Assembly: GCF_013408685.1 (NCBI RefSeq)
Contig: NZ_JACBZY010000001.1
Span: forward strand, 3,100,001 to 3,164,000
Length of the DNA: 64,000 nt
Direction: 5' to 3'
DNA from: Schumannella luteola
GTDB lineage: Bacteria; Actinomycetota; Actinomycetes; Actinomycetales; Microbacteriaceae
Positions 6,224-51,549 of the stretch are shown one piece after another; positions within the stretch are counted from its first letter, which is position 1; every line of letters begins with the position of its first letter. The position numbers were made by a program, and so were the translations under genes. The notes under the pieces were generated by a model. It saw only the letters and a list, made by a program, of their open reading frames with translations, did no database searches and had not been told where the DNA came from.

Positions 6224-6823
6224 GTGGATGCGTTCGGCCGGCTGCGCGAGGAGATCCGCGCGCATCCCGGCAACGCGGCCTTCACCGCGGCGGGCTGGGA
6301 GCCGATCTTCACGGCGAGCGCTGCGGCGCGCATCCTCGTAGTCGGCCAGGCGCCCGGCCGGCGAGCGCAGGAGAGCGCGATCCCGTGGGACGACGCGAGC
6401 GGCGCGCGGCTCTTCGATTGGCTCGGCGTGAGCGAGGCCGAGTTCCGCGATCCGGAGCGCTTCGCGATGCTGCCCATGGACTTCTACTACCCGGGCCGCG
6501 GGACCGGCGGTGATCTGCCGCCGCGGCCGGGCTTCGCCGCACGCTGGCATCCGCCGCTCCTCGCGCTGATGCCGCGCATCCGCCTGACCCTGCTGATCGG
6601 ACGCTACGCGCATCAGCACTACCTGCCCGAGCTGCGGCGCTCGACCCTGACCGCGATCGTGCGCGACTGGCGGTCGCACCTACCGGGCGTGGTGCCGCTC
6701 GTGCACCCGTCGCCCCTGAACTTCCGTTGGCAGGCGCGCAACCCGTGGTTCGTCGACGAGCTGGTGCCCGAGCTGCGCCAGGCGGTCGCAGCGCAGCTCG
6801 GGCGCGACGCGAGCCCTAGTTGA
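6224..6823 (+). CDS. Uracil-DNA glycosylase family protein
   Basis: A 199-residue single-domain member of the uracil-DNA glycosylase superfamily. ILVVGQAPGRRAQESAIPWDDASG is the motif A region, where GQAPG replaces the GQDPY of classical UDG, and PLVHPSPLNFRW is motif B, the Leu/His loop. The subgroup is widespread in bacteria and usually annotated as UDG family protein; whether it excises uracil is not established for it. No iron-sulfur cysteines are present, so it is not a family 4/5 enzyme. The GTG start at 6224 is preceded by a purine-rich GAGAGGA. The 3' end overlaps the convergent PEP-mutase-like gene by 8 bp. Confidence 0.8.
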   Translation: MDAFGRLREEIRAHPGNAAFTAAGWEPIFTASAAARILVVGQAPGRRAQESAIPWDDASGARLFDWLGVSEAEFRDPERFAMLPMDFYYPGRGTGGDLPPRPGFAARWHPPLLALMPRIRLTLLIGRYAHQHYLPELRRSTLTAIVRDWRSHLPGVVPLVHPSPLNFRWQARNPWFVDELVPELRQAVAAQLGRDASPS

Positions 6824-7616
6824 GCGCCGGGGTGTCGGTCGGGATGACGCCCGAGCCGTAGAGGTCGGCGGCCAGATCGCGCACGGCGCGGAGCGCCACG
6901 CGCTGCACGAGCGGTCCGTAGGAGATGCGGGCGACGCCGAGCGCCTCGTACTCGGCCGCGGGCAGCGCGCCGGGCAGTCCGATGACGCTGAGCTTGCCGC
7001 GGCCGAGGCCGGCGACGAGCTGCTCGACATCCTCGCGGGCGACCGCGCCGGGCACGAACACGGCCGTCGCGCCCTCGTCGAGGAAGGCCTTGCCGCGGGC
7101 GATCGCGTCGGCGATGCTGTCAGCCTTCGCGCGGTCGCCGCCACGGGCGATCGCGTCGGTGCGGGCGTTGAGCTGGAAGTCGACGCCCTCGGCCTGCGCG
7201 GCGGCGATGATCGCGCGCACGCGGGCGACCGACTCGTCGAAGGCCTTGAGCCGGTCTTCGACGTTCGCGCCGACGACGCCGATGCCGATCGCGCGGCGGG
7301 TCGTCTCACCCGGGTCGCTGTAGCCGTCGTCGAGGTCGGCGGTGACGGGCAGCTCGGTGGCGGCGACGATCGGCTCGATCGCCTTCAGCGCCACGTCGAG
7401 CGGCATGCCGCCGTCGGCGTAGCCGAGGCTCGCGGCGATCGAGTGGCCGGCGGTGGCGATCGCGGTCGTGCCGGGCACTTCGGCGACGACCTTCGTCGAG
7501 ACCGCATCCCACACGTTCACGACGCGGAGGATCGTGTCGCTCTCATAGAGGCCGCGCAGTGCGGCGGCCTTGCTGTTCACATCGGTGCTGGCGGAGTCGC
7601 TGGCGTCATCACTCAT
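6816..7616 (-). CDS. Isocitrate lyase/PEP mutase family protein
   Basis: A 266-residue alpha/beta-barrel enzyme of the ICL/PEP-mutase superfamily, whose members cleave or form C-C or P-C bonds next to a carboxylate with Mg2+. The substrate/metal segments are visible: VWDAVSTKV, TADLDDGYSDP (metal-binding acidic cluster), GANVEDR and LNARTDAI. It lacks the K-x-C-G-H signature of true isocitrate lyase, as is usual in this small bacterial subgroup, so the reaction is not assigned. A TAGCGT -10 hexamer ends 7 bases before ATG. It stands alone. Confidence 0.82.
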   Translation of the reverse strand: MSDDASDSASTDVNSKAAALRGLYESDTILRVVNVWDAVSTKVVAEVPGTTAIATAGHSIAASLGYADGGMPLDVALKAIEPIVAATELPVTADLDDGYSDPGETTRRAIGIGVVGANVEDRLKAFDESVARVRAIIAAAQAEGVDFQLNARTDAIARGGDRAKADSIADAIARGKAFLDEGATAVFVPGAVAREDVEQLVAGLGRGKLSVIGLPGALPAAEYEALGVARISYGPLVQRVALRAVRDLAADLYGSGVIPTDTPALN

Positions 7617-7623
7617 GCCGCCG

Positions 7624-7629
7624 ACGCTA
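7624..7629 (-). promoter_or_regulatory. -10 element TAGCGT of the PEP-mutase-like gene, leaderless geometry
   Basis: Ends 7 bases before the ATG at 7616. Confidence 0.6.
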
Positions 7630-7716
7630 GCGAAGCGTGAGGATCGCGCGCTCGGCCGTATGGATTCCGTCAGGGCCCGTTCAGACAGGCTCCGGCGGGT
7701 GTTCTCTCGACACCGT

Positions 7717-7733
7717 CGTCACCGGATGTGACG
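7717..7733. promoter_or_regulatory. Inverted repeat upstream of the kdp operon
   Basis: CGTCAC-N5-GTGACG lies 57 bases before the first kdp ORF. It might be a KdpE site or part of the kdp promoter, but it does not match a consensus I know and the -35/-10 boxes are not clear. Confidence 0.3.
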
Positions 7734-7790
7734 GCCGGCGCCCCGCAGGATCACGGTCGCGCCGCCACCCTCGAGACCAGAGAGACACCC

Positions 7791-7874
7791 GTGCTGGACC
7801 TCGTCTACGTGATCGGCGCCCTCGCCGTCTTCGCGCTGATCGCGCTGCTCGGCAAGGCGGTCGAGAAGCTGTGA
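7791..7874 (+). CDS. 27-residue single-span membrane peptide ORF coupled to kdpF
   Basis: An ORF from GTG 7791 to TGA 7874 encodes a 27-residue peptide: a hydrophobic core [15 protein letters not shown] flanked by an acidic N-terminus (LDL) and a charged C-terminus (KAVEKL), i.e. one membrane helix with a positive cytoplasmic end. Its stop overlaps the GTG start of kdpF in a GTGA arrangement, and kdpF in turn overlaps kdpA, so it is positioned as the first gene of the kdp operon. It is not KdpF, which is the next ORF and has its own recognisable sequence. An AGAGAG stretch lies about 8 bases upstream of the GTG. Possible roles are an extra small subunit or a translated leader that sets kdpF expression. 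Both are inference. Confidence 0.55.
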
Positions 7875-7960
7875 TCGTCATCACCGTCATCGCCGCCGTG
7901 CTCGGCGTCGCCGCCCTGGGCTACCTCGTCGTGGCCCTGCTCGAACCCGAGCGATTCTGA
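7871..7960 (+). CDS. kdpF: K+-transporting ATPase small subunit KdpF
   Basis: A 29-residue single-span protein beginning at GTG 7871. The C-terminal pattern [13 protein letters not shown] matches the typical KdpF ending (G-Y-L-x-x-A-L-x-x-P-E-x-F). KdpF stabilises the KdpABC complex at the membrane. Its TGA stop shares its last base with the ATG of kdpA, and its start overlaps the stop of the 27-residue ORF, so three genes are chained by overlaps. Assignment is based on the motif and position. Confidence 0.88.
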
Positions 7961-9660
7961 TGGATGCGACGACATTCCTGAACGGCGCCTCCTGGCTCGC
8001 CGCCGGGCTCGCGCTCCTCGTGCTCGTCGTGGTGCTGGGCCTGGCCCACCGCATCCTCGGCGACTACCTCACCCGCGTCTACACGACCGAGAAGGACTGG
8101 CGCGTCGAGCGCGGCCTCTACCGCGTGATCGGCGTGGATCCCCGCGCCGAGCAGAGCTGGCCCGCCTACCTGCGCGGCGTGCTCGCCTTCTCGCTCGTCG
8201 GGCTGCTGCTCGTCTACCTGCTGCAGCGCATCCAGCCCTGGCTGCCCTACTCCCTGGGGCTGCCCGCGCCGTCGGAACCGCTGTCGTTCAACACGGCGGC
8301 GTCGTTCGTGGCCAACACGAACTGGCAGTCGTACTCCCCCGAGGTCTCCCTCGGCTACACCGTGCAGCTCGCCGGCCTCGCCGTGCAGAACTTCGTCTCG
8401 GCCGCCGTCGGCATCGCCGTCGCCGTCGCTCTGGTGCGCGGCTTCGCGTACCGCCGCACCGGCACGATCGGCAACTTCTGGGTCGACCTGCTGCGCGGCT
8501 GCCTGCGCGTGCTGCTGCCGATCTCGGTGGTCGGCGCGGTCGTGCTCATCGCCGGCGGCGTCATCCAGAACCTCTCCGGCTTCCAGACCGCGACGACGCT
8601 CGTGGGCGGCACGCAGAGCATCCCCGGCGGGCCGGTCGCCTCGCAGGAGGTGATCAAGCTGCTCGGCACGAACGGCGGCGGCTTCTTCAACACCAACTCG
8701 GCGCACCCCTTCGAGAACCCCACCGGCTGGACGAACCTGTTCGAGATCGTGCTCATGCTGGCGATCCCGGTCGCTCTGCCGCGTCTCTTCGGTCGGATGG
8801 TCGGCGACCTGCGCCAGGGCTACGCCGTCCTCGCCGCGATGGGCGTGATCTTCGTCGCCTCGTTCGCGCTCATGACCTGGGCCGAGCTCGCCGGCGGCGG
8901 ATCCGCCACACACGCGGCCGGCGGCGCGATGGAGGGCAAGGAGCAGCGCTTCGGCATCGTCGGGTCGACGCTGTTCTCGACCACGAGCACGGCCACATCG
9001 ACCGGCGCCGTCAACGCGATGCACGACTCCTTCACGCCGTTCGGCGGCATGATGGCGCTGCTCAACATGATGATCGGCGAGCTCGCGCCCGGCGGCGTCG
9101 GTTCGGGCCTCTACGGCATCCTCGTGATCGCGGTCATCGCCGTCTTCATCGCCGGCCTGCTGGTCGGGCGCACCCCCGAGTACCTGGGCAAGAAGATCGG
9201 CGCCCGCGAGATCAAGCTCGCGAGCCTCTACATCCTCGTGACGCCCGCGCTCGTGCTCATCGGCACGGCGCTGAGCTTCGCGATCCCGGCGATCCGGGCG
9301 GATGTCGTGACGACCTCGATCTGGAATCCCGGCATCCACGGCTTCAGCGAGGTGCTCTACGCCTTCACCTCGGCGGCGAACAACAACGGCTCGGCGTTCG
9401 CGGGTCTCACCGCGAACACCCCCTGGTTCAACACCGCCCTGGGCGTGGCGATGCTGCTCGGCCGCTTCGTGCCGATCGTGCTCGTGCTGGCCCTCGCCGG
9501 CTCGCTCGCCGCGCAGGATCGGGTGCCCGTCACCGCGGGAACCCTGCCCACCCACCGGCCGCAGTTCATCGGCCTCCTCATCGGCGTGATCGTGATCGTC
9601 ACCGCGCTGACCTACTTCCCCGTTCTCGCGCTGGGTCCCCTGGCGGAAGGGCTGAGCTGA
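7960..9660 (+). CDS. kdpA: K+-transporting ATPase subunit A (KdpA)
   Basis: The 566-residue K+ channel-like subunit of the high-affinity Kdp ATPase, with about ten membrane helices and length normal for the family. The fourfold pseudo-repeat selectivity-filter regions are visible: TNWQSY near residue 113, [19 protein letters not shown] near residue 240, and [13 protein letters not shown] near residue 472. It selects K+ and passes it to the KdpB pump. Start codon overlaps the kdpF stop by one base. Two bases separate its stop from kdpB. Confidence 0.97.
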
Positions 9661-9662
9661 CC

Positions 9663-11879
9663 ATGTCCATCTCCACTCCCACGCCGGCGGCCGACGCCGC
9701 CCCCGAACCGGCCCGCTCGACGGGCGCATCCGACGCGACCGGCGCGCCCCGCGCCCCGCAGCGCCGCGCCGGCATCACGCCCCGCCAGCTCGCGGCCGCC
9801 GTCCCCGGCGCCCTGCGCAAGCTCGACCCGCGCCGCATGTGGCGCAGCCCCGTCATGTTCGTCGTCGGGGTCGGCGCCGCGCTCACCACGGTGATCGCGA
9901 TCGCCGAGCCCTTCCTCGGCGGGCCCGGCACGTCCGGCGGCACGGTCGTGCCCGGCGGCTTCACGGTCGCGATCGCGGTCTGGCTCTGGCTGACCGTGCT
10001 GTTCGCGAACCTCGCCGAATCGGTCGCCGAGGGCCGCGGCAAGGCTCAGGCCGACTCGCTGCGCCAGACCCGCACGAGCACCGTCGCGCACCGACTGGGC
10101 AGCTGGGATGCGGCGCATCCGTCCGCCGAGGGCGCCCCGCTCGAGGAGGTGTCGTCGGCGGATCTCAGGCTCGGCGACCACGTCGTCGTCACGGCCGGCG
10201 AGCTCGTGCCCGGCGACGGCGACATCGTCTGGGGCATCGCGAGCGTCGACGAGTCGGCGATCACCGGAGAGTCGGCTCCGGTCATCCGCGAGTCCGGCGG
10301 CGACCGCAGCGCCGTCACCGGCGGCACCCGTGTGCTCAGCGACCGCATCGTCGTGCGCGTGACCTCGAAGCCCGGCGAGACCTTCGTCGACCGGATGATC
10401 GCGCTCGTCGAGGGCGCCAGTCGGCAGAAGACTCCGAACGAGATCGCCCTCGACATCCTGCTCGCCTCGCTGTCGATCGTGTTCGTGCTGGTCGTGCTCG
10501 TGCTCAACCCGATGGCGTCGTACGCGGCGGCGCCGGCGAGCATCGCCGTGCTGATCGCGCTGCTGGTGTGCCTCATCCCCACGACGATCGGCGCCCTGCT
10601 CTCGGCGATCGGCATCGCCGGGATGGACCGCCTCGTGCAGCGCAACGTGCTCGCCATGTCGGGCCGCGCCGTCGAGGCCGCGGGCGACGTGACGACGCTG
10701 CTGCTCGACAAGACAGGGACCATCACCTACGGCAACCGGCGCGCGACCGCGGTCGTGCCGCTCGAGGGTGTGACCGAGCAGCAGCTTCTGCTCGCCGCGG
10801 CCCGCTCCTCGCTCGCCGACCCGACGCCCGAGGGCAGCTCGATCGTCGAGCTCGCCCGCGCGGCCGGCATCGACCCGGGCAGCTCGGAGCAGCTCGGCGG
10901 CGAGGCGGTGCCCTTCACGGCTCAGACCCGGATGAGCGGACTCGACCTGCCCGACGGCAGCCGCATCCGCAAGGGCGCCGCGAGCGCCGTCGTGACCTGG
11001 ATCGGCGCCGAGGACCGGCCGCTGAGGCGGGAGACCGAGGCCGAGCTCGACCGGATCGTGCACGACATCTCGCAGTCGGGCGGCACGCCTCTGGTCGTCG
11101 CCGTGGACGAGCGGGCGGTCGACGAGTCGGGCAGCCGCATCCGCCCCCTCGGCGTCGTGCACCTCAAAGACGTCGTGAAAGACGGACTGCGTGAGCGCTT
11201 CGCCGAGCTGCGCAGCATGGGCATCCGCACCGTCATGATCACGGGCGACAATCCGCTGACCGCGAAGGCGATCGCCGACGAGGCCGGTGTCGACGACTTC
11301 CTTGCCGAGGCGACGCCCGAGGACAAGCTGGCGCTGATCCGCCGCGAGCAGGCCGGCGGCGCGATGGTCGCGATGACCGGCGACGGCACGAACGATGCGC
11401 CCGCGCTCGCCCAGGCGGATGTCGGGGTGGCCATGAACACGGGCACCTCGGCCGCGAAGGAGGCCGGCAACATGGTCGACCTCGACAGCGACCCGACGAA
11501 GCTCATCGACGTGGTGCGCATCGGCAAGCAGCTGCTCATCACCCGCGGCGCGCTGACGACGTTCTCGATCGCGAACGACGTGGCGAAGTACTTCGCGATC
11601 ATCCCGGCGATGTTCATGGGCGTGTTCCCGCAGCTCGCGGCGCTCAACATCATGGGGCTGCACTCCCCCGCCTCGGCGGTGCTGTCGGCGATCGTGTTCA
11701 ACGCGCTCGTGATCGTGGCGCTCATCCCGCTGGCGCTGCGCGGCGTGCGGTACCGGGCCGGATCGGCGTCGCAGATCCTTGGACGCAACCTGCTGATCTA
11801 CGGCCTCGGCGGGGTGATCGCCCCGTTCATCGGCATCTGGCTGATCGACCAGCTCGTGCGCCTGATCCCCGGGTTCTGA
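9663..11879 (+). CDS. kdpB: K+-transporting ATPase ATP-binding subunit B (KdpB)
   Basis: The 738-residue P-type (P1A) ATPase subunit that drives K+ uptake. The phosphorylated aspartate is D349 in LLDKTGTIT, the actuator-domain TGES is in [10 protein letters not shown], and the hinge motif is [16 protein letters not shown]. The N-terminus has an Ala/Pro/Thr-rich extension of about 45 residues before the first helix, longer than in E. coli. The GNxxA segment after the phosphorylation site ([10 protein letters not shown]) is normal for KdpB. All catalytic residues I can check are intact. Confidence 0.97.
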
Positions 11880-39227: not shown

Positions 39228-40151
39228 TCAGCGCAGGTAGGCGTCGACGAACAGCTCCCCGCGGATCGCCCGCAGCTCATCCAGCAGCCGCGGCCAGAAC
39301 GCCTTCGTCAGCCCGCTGACGAGCAGATCGTGCGGCCCGAGCGCCGGCAGCTTCCCGGTGCGGATGCGCACCACCTCCCAACCGGCCGCCCGCACGGCGC
39401 GGTCCTTGCGCCGGTCGACCGCCTCACGCCGCCCGACGTGCTCGAGCCCGTGCCGGCCGGTGCTGTCGTACTCGATCGCGATGCGCAGCTCGGGCAGCAG
39501 CACGTCGGGCCAGGCCTCGACGTGATCGAAGAACGCCCGGCCGAGACGGATGGCGTTCGCGCTCTGGTCGAGGTCGAGCAGCTCGGCGAGGTGCTGGCGC
39601 AGCTCGCCCTCGATGACCGAAGCCGGCTTCGGAGCGCACACGCTGACGAACGCCTCGCCCACGGGGAGGTCGGGGGTCTTCGCGCACAGCGGACGGGCCG
39701 GCCTCGCCGGCTTGCGCGGTCGGGCTGCGGCTGCTCCGACCGCGGGCCGCACCGGCCCCGCCGCGCCCCGGATGACGAGACCCGACGCGGTGCCGGCGAC
39801 CGCCGCATCCACCTCGGAGGGCAGCCGCGGGCGCGCCACCGGCCGCTTCAGCGCGAGCTCGCGGCACTCCGGGCACCACGACGATCGGCGACGCTCGCGT
39901 CCCGGTCGGTCGCGCTGCTCTCCCGGCGTCGCAGCGAAGCGGTGCCCGGCGTCGCACTCCCAGAGCAGCAGCACCTCGGCCGCGGGCGGGATCTGCGTCA
40001 GCGTGAAGCCGTGATTGAGATCCGGGTGGTACTGCCGGATCAGCACCGGATACGACGACCATGCCTCCCGGTAGGTGCCGATCGGGTACGGCACGTCGAC
40101 GCCGCGCGAGAACTGGCGGCGCTGCCACCACTGCTCGACGGATTCGACCAC
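39228..40151 (-). CDS. Zinc-ribbon plus Vsr/DUF559-like endonuclease-fold protein
   Basis: A 307-residue protein. Residues about 55-100 hold a DUF4379-like treble-clef (LLWECDAGHRFAATP, then WCPEC), with the first ribbon residue pattern W-x-C-x-x-G-H. A Pro/Ala/Arg-rich linker follows. The C-terminal about 130 residues form a Vsr/DUF559-type PD-(D/E)xK core: LPELRIAIEYDSTGRHG, with D-x-A-V-R-A-A-G-W-E-V-V-R-I-R as the second strand (KDRAVRAAGWEVVRIR). The E-Y-D acidic pair suggests an active nuclease. TAGCGT ends 6 bases before the GTG start. Function unknown; related proteins are common in Microbacteriaceae. Confidence 0.72.
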   Translation of the reverse strand: MVESVEQWWQRRQFSRGVDVPYPIGTYREAWSSYPVLIRQYHPDLNHGFTLTQIPPAAEVLLLWECDAGHRFAATPGEQRDRPGRERRRSSWCPECRELALKRPVARPRLPSEVDAAVAGTASGLVIRGAAGPVRPAVGAAAARPRKPARPARPLCAKTPDLPVGEAFVSVCAPKPASVIEGELRQHLAELLDLDQSANAIRLGRAFFDHVEAWPDVLLPELRIAIEYDSTGRHGLEHVGRREAVDRRKDRAVRAAGWEVVRIRTGKLPALGPHDLLVSGLTKAFWPRLLDELRAIRGELFVDAYLR

Positions 40152-47313: not shown

Positions 47314-47319
47314 CACGTC

Positions 47320-47325
47320 AGGCTA
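47320..47325 (-). promoter_or_regulatory. -10 element TAGCCT of the antiporter gene, leaderless geometry
   Basis: Ends 6 bases before ATG 47313 but only 3 before GTG 47316, so the promoter decides the start. Confidence 0.55.
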
Positions 47326-47490
47326 TCGAGCGGGTGCGCGGGTCGGCCGTTTCATCCGCCACCGCACCGCTTTGGTATCCCACACATTGCGAAGCTCGGT
47401 CTGCCAGCTGATTGGTCACCCGACCGATACGTCTTGGTGGGGTCTTCGGAGTTCGCATGTTTCGTCGTACCCCCGCGAGAGAATCGACGC

Positions 47491-49320
47491 ATGTCAGTAG
47501 AACTTTTCGCTGTCACGGCCGTGGTCGACCGCATCGCCGCTTGTCCCCTGCTTGCGCCCGAGATTAAGTCGGGGGACAAAGTCCCGATCACCGACGGCCA
47601 CATCGACTTCTACAGCTCTGCCAGAAAGAGCAATATGTCACACGTTGGGCGGGTGCCCGTGCAGGTCAAGGGTCGAGCGACAGCGACGAAGGTGAAGGCT
47701 TCCCGTGACTCCCAGTCGTTCCCGATCGAGCGCGAGGTGCTCCAGTTCTTTCGAAATCACGGTGGGGGAATCTACTTCTACGTGCCGATGCGCAAGGGCG
47801 GGGCCCAACGCGAAGTGTTCTACGTGATACTGCTCCCATTCAAGATCGGGCGACTCGTTGACGGCAAGCCAGACACACAGCGGTCTTTCTCCGTCAAGAT
47901 GCGGAGGCTTCCGGAGGAAGTCCCGCAGATCGAGGCGATCGTCCGCCTTACTTGGAATGGTCGCGTTCAAACTTCCAACCCGGGCGACAACGACGTCTTG
48001 TTAGATCAGGCCGAAAGCCTGACGGTTCACTCGCTGGACGGCTTTGACGAAAATCGCCCTACCCGACTCGCACTCGCCGACACCGACTATGTCGTCGTCG
48101 CCCATTTGCCCGGGGGCCTCGAGGTGGCCATGGATATCGATCTTGAGGTCCTCCCGCGCGAGTACTTAGAGCGTGACCTCGCCGTTTCGATCAAGTGCGG
48201 CGAGGTCGAGTTCACTAATGCAAGAGGTCGCCGACTCCAGGCGGACACAACCCTGATCCGCCTCTCATCGGGCCTGAAAATCCGTCTCAGAGCCGACGCT
48301 GGTGCAATCAGTGCGCACCTCGATCTCACCCGTGAGGGCTCATTCCGAGCGCAGGCGAAGAACTTCGACTTCATGCTCGCCGCTGCGTCCGGCAGCCCAC
48401 TCCAGATCGGCGACGGGCCCAACGAACCGCAAGCCGGCGATCCGGGCCTGCAAACCGAGCTCCGAAGCATTCGACAGGAAATCTCTTGCTTGACTGATCT
48501 CTTCGACGAACTGGGAATCGATGACGGGCTTAGTTCGGAGCTTCAGCTCGACGATGATCTGCGACGGATGCTTCTCGCCATGCACGAAGGACTCGTGCAA
48601 GACCAACCAGTGCGGGGAAACTCCGACGGCACCGGACGATACGACTTCTCGGTCGGCGACTACAAAATCATGGCGATTGTCATGCCCGCCGAGGAACCGG
48701 GTTTCCGCCGAATCATTGATCCGTTCGACCCCACCAAGCGCGATCGGTTTCAGATCTACCGGATCGACGATGACGGCTCGCCGGAACTGATCGATTGGGC
48801 GACCGTCTACGAGTCGGTGACCGCCGAAGAAATGGCGATGATCCTGAACTTGAGACTGAACAACCTGGTCGATTCGTACGCGAACCTCGAAGATCGGCAA
48901 GCGGCACTGACCAGGGCGAACTACACGGTGCTTCGGCTTCTGACCGCCGCTGATATTGCGTCTAGTGGGGTCCAGCGCGCCAATCTGCTGAACGGGGCCT
49001 TGAGCCTTTGCCAGTGGCTCATGACCGAAGACCCCGACTCGCTGGTTCACCGTGTCAACTCTTGGCAGATCTTGCACCGACGAGGCGAGCTAGGCGACGA
49101 CGTCAGGCGAGAAATCCGCGCTACTCGGCGTGGCCTGCCCTGCGACGACGCTCAGGCGCGAGAACTGGAAGCGTGCATGCTCATCCTTTTGGGTGATGAG
49201 GCGGAGCTCGAGGTTGTCATCGAGGAACTCACCGAAGTCCAAGTGAAGAACCTCCGGAGCTGGCCCGTCTGGGCGCTGAGGAATTCAGAGCCGAAGCCCG
49301 TGCTTGCGATCGAGAACTAG
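47491..49320 (+). CDS. DUF4365 nuclease-like protein with long helical C-terminus (candidate defence gene)
   Basis: A 609-residue protein. Residues about 1-140 match the DUF4365 pattern, a PD-(D/E)xK-like fold: GHIDFYSSARKS with D39, then VPVQVKGRA with Q58 and K60, as in the usual D...Q-x-K core. Residues about 160-330 are a beta-rich region. The C-terminal about 200 residues are helical, perhaps TPR-like (LRLNNLVDSYANLEDRQAALTRANY and on), ending in WALRNSEPKPVLAIEN. GC content and codon use differ from the neighbours (TTA, ATA and AAA codons occur). It faces an unrecognised TOPRIM-like gene, between a tRNA-Pro and an antiporter gene. I infer a transferred accessory gene, perhaps defensive; DUF4365 proteins occur in such islands, but no function is proven. 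Confidence 0.7.
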   Translation: MSVELFAVTAVVDRIAACPLLAPEIKSGDKVPITDGHIDFYSSARKSNMSHVGRVPVQVKGRATATKVKASRDSQSFPIEREVLQFFRNHGGGIYFYVPMRKGGAQREVFYVILLPFKIGRLVDGKPDTQRSFSVKMRRLPEEVPQIEAIVRLTWNGRVQTSNPGDNDVLLDQAESLTVHSLDGFDENRPTRLALADTDYVVVAHLPGGLEVAMDIDLEVLPREYLERDLAVSIKCGEVEFTNARGRRLQADTTLIRLSSGLKIRLRADAGAISAHLDLTREGSFRAQAKNFDFMLAAASGSPLQIGDGPNEPQAGDPGLQTELRSIRQEISCLTDLFDELGIDDGLSSELQLDDDLRRMLLAMHEGLVQDQPVRGNSDGTGRYDFSVGDYKIMAIVMPAEEPGFRRIIDPFDPTKRDRFQIYRIDDDGSPELIDWATVYESVTAEEMAMILNLRLNNLVDSYANLEDRQAALTRANYTVLRLLTAADIASSGVQRANLLNGALSLCQWLMTEDPDSLVHRVNSWQILHRRGELGDDVRREIRATRRGLPCDDAQARELEACMLILLGDEAELEVVIEELTEVQVKNLRSWPVWALRNSEPKPVLAIEN

Positions 49321-49443
49321 CGGGCGCCGGATTCCGGAAGGGATCGAACGCCGAACCCAGGACCAAGGTGTGGCAAAATGTGCGCGCCGAATGGTCCGGC
49401 TTCGGGCAGGTTTGCGCAATCGCGGAGAGCAGCCGACCGCTAT

Positions 49444-51237
49444 CTATGGGCGAGGTTGCTCCTCGTTTGTCGCAATGTCCTCGTGCTGAGCAACATTGAG
49501 GCCGAAGGCGCCCAGAGAGTTGTGGTTTACAAGTACACGTACGTCCTCGACTAGTTTCAGAACCGGGGGTAGCTCGTCGTAGGTCGCGGCCTGACCGATT
49601 CGCGATGTGAGCGCCGAAAGTAGCTCGCGGGCGAGGTCCATCTTTCGAACCGGCCACTGCATTCGCTGATAGACGACCTTTACGTCGAGTTCCCGATTTC
49701 TCACGTGTTCAAGGTGTGAGATGAGCAACTCACGAAGGTCCTCTTCTCGCTCGGCGGAGTCCCCATGAGTGAGTCCTACGCGCGCCAGACCAACAGCTAG
49801 CTCTTCGTCAGAAAAATTGGCGAGCTCGTACTTCTGCTCGCCCCAGGTCCGAACGTCCACTAGCGAGTCGAGTTCCTCCTCCGACACGGCTGCGCCCTGG
49901 CCGGAGACCTGATCCCTGACTTTTTGCCGGAGATTCGACACAGTGCGATCGAACGCACCGTTCGACTCCCGGAACTCGCCCTCGTTGTCCATAGCGACGA
50001 CAAGCGATGTCGGTGCGCCCTCAATGATCGCGCGCCGGCCGTTCGCCTGCGCAAGTCGCGGAGCAACGAAGGACGCCAGCTCAGTGGGAGAGTCGCTGGA
50101 CGTTCCCTGGTTCACCAACCGGACGCGATGTCCGAGTTCAATCGCATCAAGAATTGCTCGGACGTGGAACATCTCCACATCGCCTTCGAGAACCAACACG
50201 ACTCGGGGCTGCGGAGACAGGGCCATCCTGGTCAAGGCGACCGGGAGACCGCTCGGCGAGGTGTGGCCGATGCGATCGGTGAGCGCCTGTCGAAGGCGTG
50301 GCCCGTTGGCCGAGGGAATCGGATCGCCGGTTTCGCTAGCAAGTTCCTCCTCAGCCCTGAGCAGGACTTCCGCGGCGATGCGCTGCCAGACGGATTCCAG
50401 CGCTCGCCCTCGGAGTTTGAACCATCCCAAATGGTTGGAGTGGCGAATGACATCCCACCATTCGGCGAGCGGGTCGTGGTTTCGAGCCCGATCAAGGAGG
50501 AACTCGCCTGCCGGCCGCAACCGGCCAGTCGGCAGCCCCACGACCTCCAGCCGACGCTCTGCGGTTAGGTCGCGGGCGGCTCGTCGAACTGAGTCCTGAT
50601 CGGCGAAGGACGGGAACGAGACCTGGCCGACGATCTGGGGATAAAAGCGCGATGCGAGGGCAGCGAGCGCAAGGTGCTCTTCTCGCGCTCGGTCGGCAAA
50701 GGCTTCATCGCTGCCGGTCGGTGCGTTTGGGCATATACGACGGTTCTCTAGGACGCGAAGAGCGTCTCTGAGCCCGAGCAACTGCCAGCGACTGTAGAAA
50801 TACTCGGATCCTGCGTCCACTGTCGCGTCATCAGGCGCACGGAGAGTTCCCGCGCGCGCATAGCGGGCTATCCGGTCTTGGTCGGCCTCATCCACGAGGA
50901 TCGTCTTGCTGGAGTCGGCATCCTCGACAACGGCAAACAACGGGACGAGGAGGCCAGCTCGGCGGACGGAGTGCAACTGCGACGCGCTGACGTTCAGACC
51001 CCACTCTCGAGCCGCTCGCCTGAACGCATCTACTCCAAGGACGCCCACCTGTGAGAAGACGAACGGCAAACGAAGGAGTTCAAGTCCAGCCCGAGGCGAC
51101 TCGGCGCCCTCGGCGGCCTCGAGGTCGAGACTGCTCACTCGGCGAACACTAGCGCGCGCATCGCGTCGCAGCTCGCCGATAGGGCTCGCCACATGACGAG
51201 CTGACCAGTCAACGCTCCAGGTAGCCCGGTGGGTCAT
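49444..51237 (-). CDS. Unrecognised large protein with TOPRIM-like core, beside DUF4365 gene
   Basis: A 597-residue protein I do not recognise as a named family. The central part contains RVVLVLEGDVEMFHVRAILDAI (Glu351 in V-L-E-G-D), a glycine-less loop, and SLVVAMDNEGEF with D417-N-E419, spaced like the Glu and D-x-D/E motifs of TOPRIM domains in OLD-type nucleases. The N-terminal half includes QVGVLGVDAFRRAAREWGLNVSASQLHSVRRAGLLVPLF, which reads as a helix-turn-helix-like segment. The C-terminal part is helical and acidic. No ABC ATPase domain is attached, unlike full OLD proteins. ATG 51237 is chosen because longer frames read back through the tRNA gene; ATG 51246 is an alternative. GC lower than its neighbours. 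Confidence 0.65.
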   Translation of the reverse strand: MTHRATWSVDWSARHVASPIGELRRDARASVRRVSSLDLEAAEGAESPRAGLELLRLPFVFSQVGVLGVDAFRRAAREWGLNVSASQLHSVRRAGLLVPLFAVVEDADSSKTILVDEADQDRIARYARAGTLRAPDDATVDAGSEYFYSRWQLLGLRDALRVLENRRICPNAPTGSDEAFADRAREEHLALAALASRFYPQIVGQVSFPSFADQDSVRRAARDLTAERRLEVVGLPTGRLRPAGEFLLDRARNHDPLAEWWDVIRHSNHLGWFKLRGRALESVWQRIAAEVLLRAEEELASETGDPIPSANGPRLRQALTDRIGHTSPSGLPVALTRMALSPQPRVVLVLEGDVEMFHVRAILDAIELGHRVRLVNQGTSSDSPTELASFVAPRLAQANGRRAIIEGAPTSLVVAMDNEGEFRESNGAFDRTVSNLRQKVRDQVSGQGAAVSEEELDSLVDVRTWGEQKYELANFSDEELAVGLARVGLTHGDSAEREEDLRELLISHLEHVRNRELDVKVVYQRMQWPVRKMDLARELLSALTSRIGQAATYDELPPVLKLVEDVRVLVNHNSLGAFGLNVAQHEDIATNEEQPRP

Positions 51238-51436
51238 AACGAACATCGAAGGCTGACTATCCGATAGACGAGCGTTTGACACCTGACCGGCGACCGCGGC
51301 GCCCGTGCACCTCTGAAGGATGCGGAAGTCGAGTGCGCGTCGTCGCTCGGGCAGGGGCCGCCGCAGCGAGCATAGATGGAGGAGAAGGACCGAGACGAAA
51401 ACGTCCCGATGCGTGCACTGCCACGCGAACACGACG

Positions 51437-51473
51437 AAGCCCCGGCAGATCGTCCGATCCGCCGGGGCTTTTC
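51437..51473. terminator. Terminator next to tRNA-Pro
   Basis: Perfect 10-bp stem AAGCCCCGGC (51437-51446) with GCCGGGGCTT (51461-51470), followed on the plus strand by TTCGG and, read from the tRNA side, preceded by AAAA. It ends the tRNA message on the minus strand (possibly bidirectional). Confidence 0.75.
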
Positions 51474-51475
51474 GG

Positions 51476-51549
51476 TCGGGCTGACAGGATTTGAACCTGC
51501 GACCCCCTGACCCCCAGTCAGGTGCGCTACCAAGCTGCGCCACAGCCCG
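51476..51549 (-). tRNA. tRNA-Pro (anticodon GGG)
   Basis: A 74-base cloverleaf on the minus strand: acceptor CGGGCTG/CAGCCCG, D stem GCGC/GCGC, anticodon stem CCTGA/TCAGG with loop CTGGGGG (anticodon GGG), T stem GCAGG/CCTGT with loop TTCAAAT, discriminator A. CCA is not encoded. Its 3' end faces the low-GC segment, where integrative elements usually insert. A translated readthrough of this gene is not a protein. Confidence 0.95.

Follow-up and report, generated by a model that had tools for sequence, protein, structure and literature searches.

What are the two long genes that face each other beside a tRNA-Pro(GGG) gene of Schumannella luteola, and are they one system or two? They occupy a segment of low guanine + cytosine (GC) content in a 64,000-nucleotide stretch of contig NZ_JACBZY010000001.1 (hereafter the window, whose coordinates we use). 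Gene 1 (47491–49320, plus strand) encodes a protein of 609 amino acids (aa) with a nuclease-like motif of the PD-(D/E)xK type, and gene 2 (49444–51237, minus strand) encodes a protein of 597 aa with an OLD-like TOPRIM region and no recognisable ABC ATPase. We consider it probable (about 0.7) that these are two independently acquired candidate single-gene nuclease modules, most likely defences against phages or other mobile elements, lying side by side in an integration hotspot. For both proteins, the nuclease activity, the triggers, the targets and the defence function are what we infer.

The segment is foreign DNA at a variable tRNA site

The segment is foreign DNA with its border at the 3′ end of the tRNA gene. 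It extends from the conserved left flank to that 3′ end (47340–51474), since the long DNA matches to a congener (G001) break off at 47339 and begin again at 51475; tRNA-Pro(GGG) itself lies at 51474–51549 on the minus strand, and its 3′ end forms the right border. The GC content of 47340–51473 is 61.4%, against 72.6% in the remainder of the window, where the minimum among 516 overlapping stretches of the same length is 70.0%. GC at third codon positions (GC3) is 0.73 in gene 1 and 0.68 in gene 2; seven genes from elsewhere in the window, with an out-of-frame eighth row (argG) left out, range from 0.91 to 0.97. We could not find an integrase near this copy: the four matches to PF00589 (tyrosine integrase) in the genome are at 0.10, 1.87, 2.41 and 3.73 Mb and the segment is at 3.15 Mb, serine recombinases not having been searched. 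Nor was there an attachment (att) repeat at the locus: no other part of the window matches the tRNA region exactly over more than 15 nt. With neither integrase nor repeat, the segment may be a decayed element, or may have been imported by recombination between the flanks. An original prediction for this locus had described two facing genes separated by 123 bp, an A+T-rich segment with unusual codons, acquisition on the 3′ side of tRNA-Pro, and the lack of both an integrase and a repeat of the tRNA 3′ end; the open reading frames (ORFs), the composition, the border and the searches bear out each of these points.

We located tRNA-Pro(ggg) in all four congeners (G001–G004), scanned a selection of the genes found at the site and ran four proteins of G003 and G004 against PADLOC. 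In G001 the long flank matches have 91.5% and 93.7% DNA identity, with the right one resuming at most 1 base from the tRNA 3′ end, and between the flanks the gene-1 region alone matches, at 70% DNA identity; this site holds a gene-1 relative (67% protein identity) and lacks gene 2. ORF picking in G002 gave no ORF of at least 90 aa from the tRNA to the homologue of the window gene at 39228–40151. G003 carries a GmrSD-type protein (Orf5/HEC-06 in PADLOC), a C5 cytosine methylase and an MTaX1 protein at the site, and G004 the IetS and IetA genes (1070 and 483 bits) together with a DUF4062 gene; the left flanks of these two genomes do not match that of the window. Hence one of the four sites is cargo-free, and the cargo of the others differs from site to site; at two of them it includes PADLOC-recognised genes. 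The tRNA-Pro(GGG) site is, therefore, a variable integration hotspot with a defence-island setting. A comparison of sister genomes, which the original prediction had called for, gave variable cargo and a cargo-free site in G002; it did not give a clean empty-site pair, because the window genes preceding the segment are also missing there. The segment is not fixed and syntenic in relatives either, as gene 2 is found in none of the four congeners and gene 1 in one. We also noted, in locus L023 of G003 (7117–7165), a second partial copy of tRNA-Pro, its 5′ half, adjoining the intact tRNA gene; this is perhaps the scar of an older integration.

The two genes were not found together elsewhere in the genomes searched

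We searched 398 family genomes, in two draws whose listed members agree, and scored up to three candidates per genome. Gene 1 was matched in 8 of them and gene 2 in 3; both counts include the window's own genome, which alone had matches to both. No gene-1 match was found in the five genomes with gene-2 relatives, in a search that lacked a positive control and is weak. Since no other genome searched had both genes, and since G001 has a gene-1 relative alone, they look like separate cargo. The original prediction had offered a two-gene nuclease defence system or two unrelated cargo genes; the co-occurrence counts do not support the former, and the latter fits best.

Gene 1 belongs to a mobile family with a nuclease-like motif

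Gene 1 belongs to a mobile family that is cargo of phages, plasmids and tRNA islands. Five of the seven other family genomes with a match show a tRNA gene in the stretch examined (12.0–19.5 kb), and in two of those five, G131 and G215, a long tRNA-end repeat lies beyond the gene-1 relative. The relative in G131, which is from another genus, is part of a 13.0-kb island at tRNA-Pro(ggg) (locus L032, 2458–15517), whose two borders are marked by att-like 30-nt repeats that copy the tRNA 3′ end exactly. The island also holds the gene of a tyrosine integrase that appears to be frameshifted, a SIR2-domain gene, a small gene, a gene for an LmuB-like SMC protein and a DUF4238 gene; its GC content is 60.6%, compared with 67.2% outside. 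The relative in G215 is enclosed in a 5.8-kb stretch at tRNA-Ser(cga) (locus L031, 5520–11386) with a 26-nt tRNA-end repeat and a GC content of 59.6%, compared with 69.2% outside. An integrase adjoins tRNA-Ser about 7 kb from the relative in another genome (G051), and the relative in G090 has an internal stop codon.

Further relatives are present on four plasmids, from Glutamicibacter, Corynebacterium glutamicum, Arthrobacter and Lysinibacillus. The C. glutamicum one is near a Shedu-domain gene and the Arthrobacter one near a type I restriction-modification system; the other two have no obvious defence neighbours. Phage LIBA6276 encodes a relative that adjoins an annotated integrase, and a viral contig encodes one near a serine recombinase, which we recognised by eye. 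A second scan of viral contigs returned no relative.

Gene 1 matches phrog_9827, a phage protein family without assigned function, over nearly its full length (residues 5–599 on profile positions 10–581 of 584, E-value 4.8e-19). As judged from this match, gene 1 is a new member of that family with a nuclease-like motif, but it is chromosomal and placed at a tRNA hotspot. We aligned 12 sequences, gene 1 and eleven relatives, the twelfth row of which begins downstream of the E4 position. D35, Q58 and K60 are invariant (12/12), as is E4 across the other 11 rows. The original prediction had placed the catalytic core at D39...Q58-V-K60; the glutamine and the lysine stand, and D39, found in 9 of the 12 sequences, is doubtful, with D35 being the universal acid instead. 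The distance from D39 to the QxK motif (19 residues) is that of the acid position in two of three DUF4365 sequences, the third having 20. Thus, either D35 or D39 may act in a given member, D35 alone being universal in this set. DUF4365 itself is matched weakly by 6 of the 12 sequences (E-values up to 1, the best being 8.6e-5). Conserved acids together with a (D/E/Q)-x-K motif are what is expected of a PD-(D/E)xK nuclease, and gene 1 has them, at the level of the motif only. We propose that residues 1 to about 125 (47491–47865, plus strand), with E4, D35 and Q58-V-K60, are a putative nuclease domain, and that the remaining 480 or so residues would sense or hold the target, or assemble the protein; the gene would spread as cargo of phages, plasmids and tRNA islands.

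The nearest described likeness to this motif is in TmuRE, the DUF4365 nuclease of a short-Argonaute system, in which, according to PMC10810196, Q62 and K64 are the likely active site and the double mutant served as the inactive form. Gene 1 has the same Q-x-K pair and the weak Pfam similarity just described. Unlike TmuRE, it has no Argonaute gene beside it in the segment, and its invariant acid is D35 rather than the residue 39 that the QxK spacing suggests.

Gene 2 resembles class 2 OLD nucleases and has no recognisable ATPase

The alignment for gene 2 contains five sequences, gene 2 and four relatives of 20–48% identity. E351, G352, E355, D417, E419, W465, E471, N474, F475 and K532 are invariant in all five. 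The two most distant relatives match Pfam OLD-like_TOPRIM (PF20469) at the EGxxE motif, with E-values of 1.3e-4 and 5.8e-4, just short of the cut-off; gene 2 and its two nearer relatives have no Pfam match. An AlphaFold2 model of gene 2 (mean predicted local distance difference test, pLDDT, 53.6) is better in residues 341–390 and 411–570, where the order of strands and helices fits TOPRIM, and the top Foldseek match among solved structures is 6njv, the class 2 OLD region from Xanthomonas (XccOLD; probability 1.00). In the related BpOLD, the metal ligands are E400, E404, D455, D457, T506 and E508 (PMC6755086); T506 and E508, which bind metal B, and the catalytic lysine K562 belong to the helical region. 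By order and rough spacing, rather than by residue-level structural alignment, E351, E355, D417, E419, E471 and K532 of gene 2 correspond to E400, E404, D455, D457, E508 and K562. We place the TOPRIM and helical region at residues 346–575 (49513–50202, minus strand). Residues 1–345 (50203–51237, minus strand) stand where OLD proteins have their ATPase, and this region has no family match, is of low pLDDT and is mostly helical in the model. No Walker A pattern was found in any of the five aligned sequences, and no AAA or ABC Pfam match in gene 2 or its four relatives. Motifs and model support the assignment of a TOPRIM of the class 2 OLD (GajA) kind, without a recognisable ABC ATPase, much as the original prediction had read E351, D417 and E419. 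It had also held gene 2 apart from standard OLD and Gabija proteins. We likewise rejected membership of either, there being no ATPase and no helicase; since gene 2 lacks the ATPase that defines the OLD family, it is to be regarded as a variant of the OLD nucleases, not as a member. Sequence searches of solved structures with both family profiles returned nothing useful, and Foldseek found nothing among viral models.

Gene 2 is rare. Our draws of genomes from the family, order, phylum and class overlap in part and each includes the window's own genome; of the 398 family genomes 3 had a match, in one case no more than two short pieces. The 396 genomes of the order gave 2 and the 396 of the phylum 3, including two distant relatives, and the 246 of the class gave the window's own copy alone. 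A scan of genome contigs with the single protein gave no relative, and one with the alignment gave two loci, apparently of relatives already found. There was no match in plasmid records and no viral contig in three scans. Distant relatives were likewise absent from plasmids and viral contigs, save for one partial match of the relative at locus L039 to an 11.85-Mb Nonomuraea record filed among plasmids, in which no intact long ORF covers the match.

Two of the five relatives are near recognised defence genes or candidates, which, with the GmrSD cassette and IetAS of the congeners, agrees with the defence-island setting that had been predicted: the relative in G342 is near IetS (2.7e-263), and that in G843 is upstream of the SIR2 candidate PDC-S65 (4.1e-184). 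The relative in G092 is broken (locus L028, 9437–10113) and has an ORF of one insertion sequence on each side. In G770 the relative follows an overlapping ORF without an assigned family, and the single nearby ORF tested in G769 had no Pfam match. In locus L048 of G843 (6582–10302), PDC-S65 is directly downstream of the relative on the same strand, and the two are possibly a two-gene arrangement there. Unassigned ORFs directly upstream of a relative, on its strand, were seen in locus L047 (10486–11751, 421 aa) and locus L027 (10594–11370, 258 aa). These two show no mutual similarity by blastp, and the window has no such ORF between gene 2 and the tRNA.

Likeness to described TOPRIM systems

According to a review, TOPRIM and ABC ATPase form one protein in OLD classes 1–3 and are encoded by two separate genes in PARIS, the proposed class 4. 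Gene 2 is closest to class 2 OLD/GajA (BpOLD, XccOLD), having in common with it the TOPRIM EGxxE and an acidic DxE motif (DxD in BpOLD), a later Glu and Lys, and a helical segment in the catalytic region. Unlike class 2 OLD and Gabija proteins it lacks a Walker A pattern, a counterpart of T506 and an adjacent UvrD/PcrA/Rep-like helicase, its neighbours being gene 1, which has no helicase match, and tRNA-Pro. AriB of PARIS, a tRNA-cutting TOPRIM protein, has no ATPase fused to it (PMC12409363). It is like gene 2 in being encoded apart from an ATPase, but gene 2 has its own N-terminal region of about 345 residues, has no PADLOC match and, in a search confined to the segment, has no AriA or other ATPase gene beside it. 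Retron-Eco2 is reported to fuse a reverse transcriptase to a TOPRIM effector, and so, like gene 2, couples a TOPRIM defence effector to something other than an ABC ATPase; gene 2, however, has no reverse-transcriptase Pfam match. By this precedent, a TOPRIM effector that lacks an ABC ATPase is nothing new in itself. The IetAS genes, the GmrSD/5-methylcytosine cassette and PDC-S65 share the congener site or lie near gene-2 relatives; they are different protein families, to which neither gene has a PADLOC match. Our literature search, with most subscription journals outside its coverage, found no description of an ATPase-free TOPRIM family or of a single-gene system like gene 1, and, among the papers listed, none bearing the name PDC-S65.

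Weighing the explanations

We propose that gene 2 would encode a TOPRIM nuclease that works with two metals, as in class 2 OLD/GajA, and in which the N-terminal region may replace the ABC ATPase as a sensor or dimeriser and which, once triggered, would cut nucleic acid, more likely DNA than RNA because of the likeness of the active site. Both proteins would act against incoming DNA, through cleavage of that DNA or through damage to the infected cell.

Several observations weigh against this reading of two nuclease modules. On the side of gene 1, we rejected membership of DUF4365 because the score (15.6 bits) is under the Pfam gathering score of 24.3; the gene-1 profile matched three DUF4365 sequences weakly (probability 12 local, 2 global), and the AlphaFold2 model (mean pLDDT 33.5) is too poor to show whether there is a PD-(D/E)xK fold. 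Of the original DUF4365/PD-(D/E)xK assignment there remain, then, a nuclease-like motif and a weak similarity. On the side of gene 2, the model is poor outside residues 341–570 or so, and structure prediction, the check that had been proposed for both proteins, favoured TOPRIM for gene 2 by its strand-helix order and gave no fold for gene 1. The match to 6njv is weak (E-value 8.3e-3, template modelling scores 0.20/0.44, root-mean-square deviation 7.6), no match reached an E-value of 0.001, and the next matches were unrelated proteins. The gene-2 profile, compared with ten PF20469 relatives (an eleventh having been dropped), gave a weak match (probability 37 local, 68 global), and T506 of BpOLD has no counterpart, position 469 being K, T or S. 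Because gene 2 is rare, what is seen of its context comes from five relatives, of which one is broken, and as few candidates were scored per genome, matches may have been missed. Neither protein has a PADLOC match or a known activity. Finally, the phage phenotype of YbjD (class 1 OLD) is reported to require the ATPase but not the TOPRIM, a reason not to presume that a TOPRIM is the weapon by itself.

One rival is that the genes are remnants of integrative or phage elements that have since decayed, and that they serve something other than host defence, for example upkeep of the element, its replication or repair, or superinfection exclusion on behalf of a prophage. The gene-1 relatives of islands, a phage and a viral contig, which lie near integrases or recombinases, would fit this, as would the Glutamicibacter and Lysinibacillus plasmids without obvious defence neighbours and the lack of an integrase or att repeat at the window copy. 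We nevertheless hold it to be unlikely, given the recognised defence genes that neighbour several relatives and the failure of gene 2 to match any plasmid record or viral contig, one of its relatives matching only the Nonomuraea record. That the two genes form one nuclease defence system, where one senses and the other cuts or both are needed, is very improbable. Their convergent arrangement within one acquired segment and their similar low GC speak for it; however, of the genomes searched only the window's own matched both, G001 has a gene-1 relative alone at the same site, and facing genes cannot share an operon. Least credible of all, to the point of being hardly tenable, are ordinary, vertically inherited host genes of unusual composition, for which there is nothing beyond the intact reading frames. 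Gene 2 matches none of the four congeners and gene 1 one, both are outliers in GC and GC3, and the DNA of gene 1 is 70% identical between flanks of 91.5% and 93.7% identity.

A further possibility is a variant nested within the two-module explanation, namely that gene 2 is an RNA-cutting effector like AriB, a tRNase. It has some footing, as AriB itself combines a TOPRIM with tRNA cleavage and has no fused ATPase (PMC12409363), and class 2 OLD and RNase M5 have a common metal-site layout (PMC6755086). We regard this variant as doubtful, because the top structural match is to a class 2 OLD catalytic region, the invariant K532 is at about the spacing of K562 in BpOLD, and no ATPase partner gene is present in the segment, the rest of the genome not having been searched for AriA.

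Accessory features of the segment

A terminator-like hairpin (inverted repeat I11, 51437–51470, 16-nt arms, 94% complementary) lies between the segment genes and the tRNA. The frame of gene 2 runs on without a stop codon through the tRNA gene as far as 51543, which leaves the start of the protein uncertain; residues conserved in the nearer relatives set in at about position 45–58. In both genes, third codon positions are more diverged than first and second ones, indicating constraint on both proteins, which fits the non-defence cargo rival too.

Implications

The tRNA-Pro(GGG) site is a concrete place in the genus to seek further unlisted defence genes, as the three occupied congener sites each hold different cargo. 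More tentatively, and with a little less than even confidence, we suggest that gene 2 is the founding member of an ATPase-free family of OLD-type nucleases, scattered among actinobacteria, that would work as a one-gene antiviral system. Sensing, the task of the ABC ATPase in OLD, Gabija and PARIS, would fall to the protein's own N-terminal region. If this is true, an OLD-type catalytic region that keeps the metal ligands and the lysine but has no ATPase would show how far regulation depends on the ATPase, and such a protein would be a compact system for testing the regulatory role of the ATPase.

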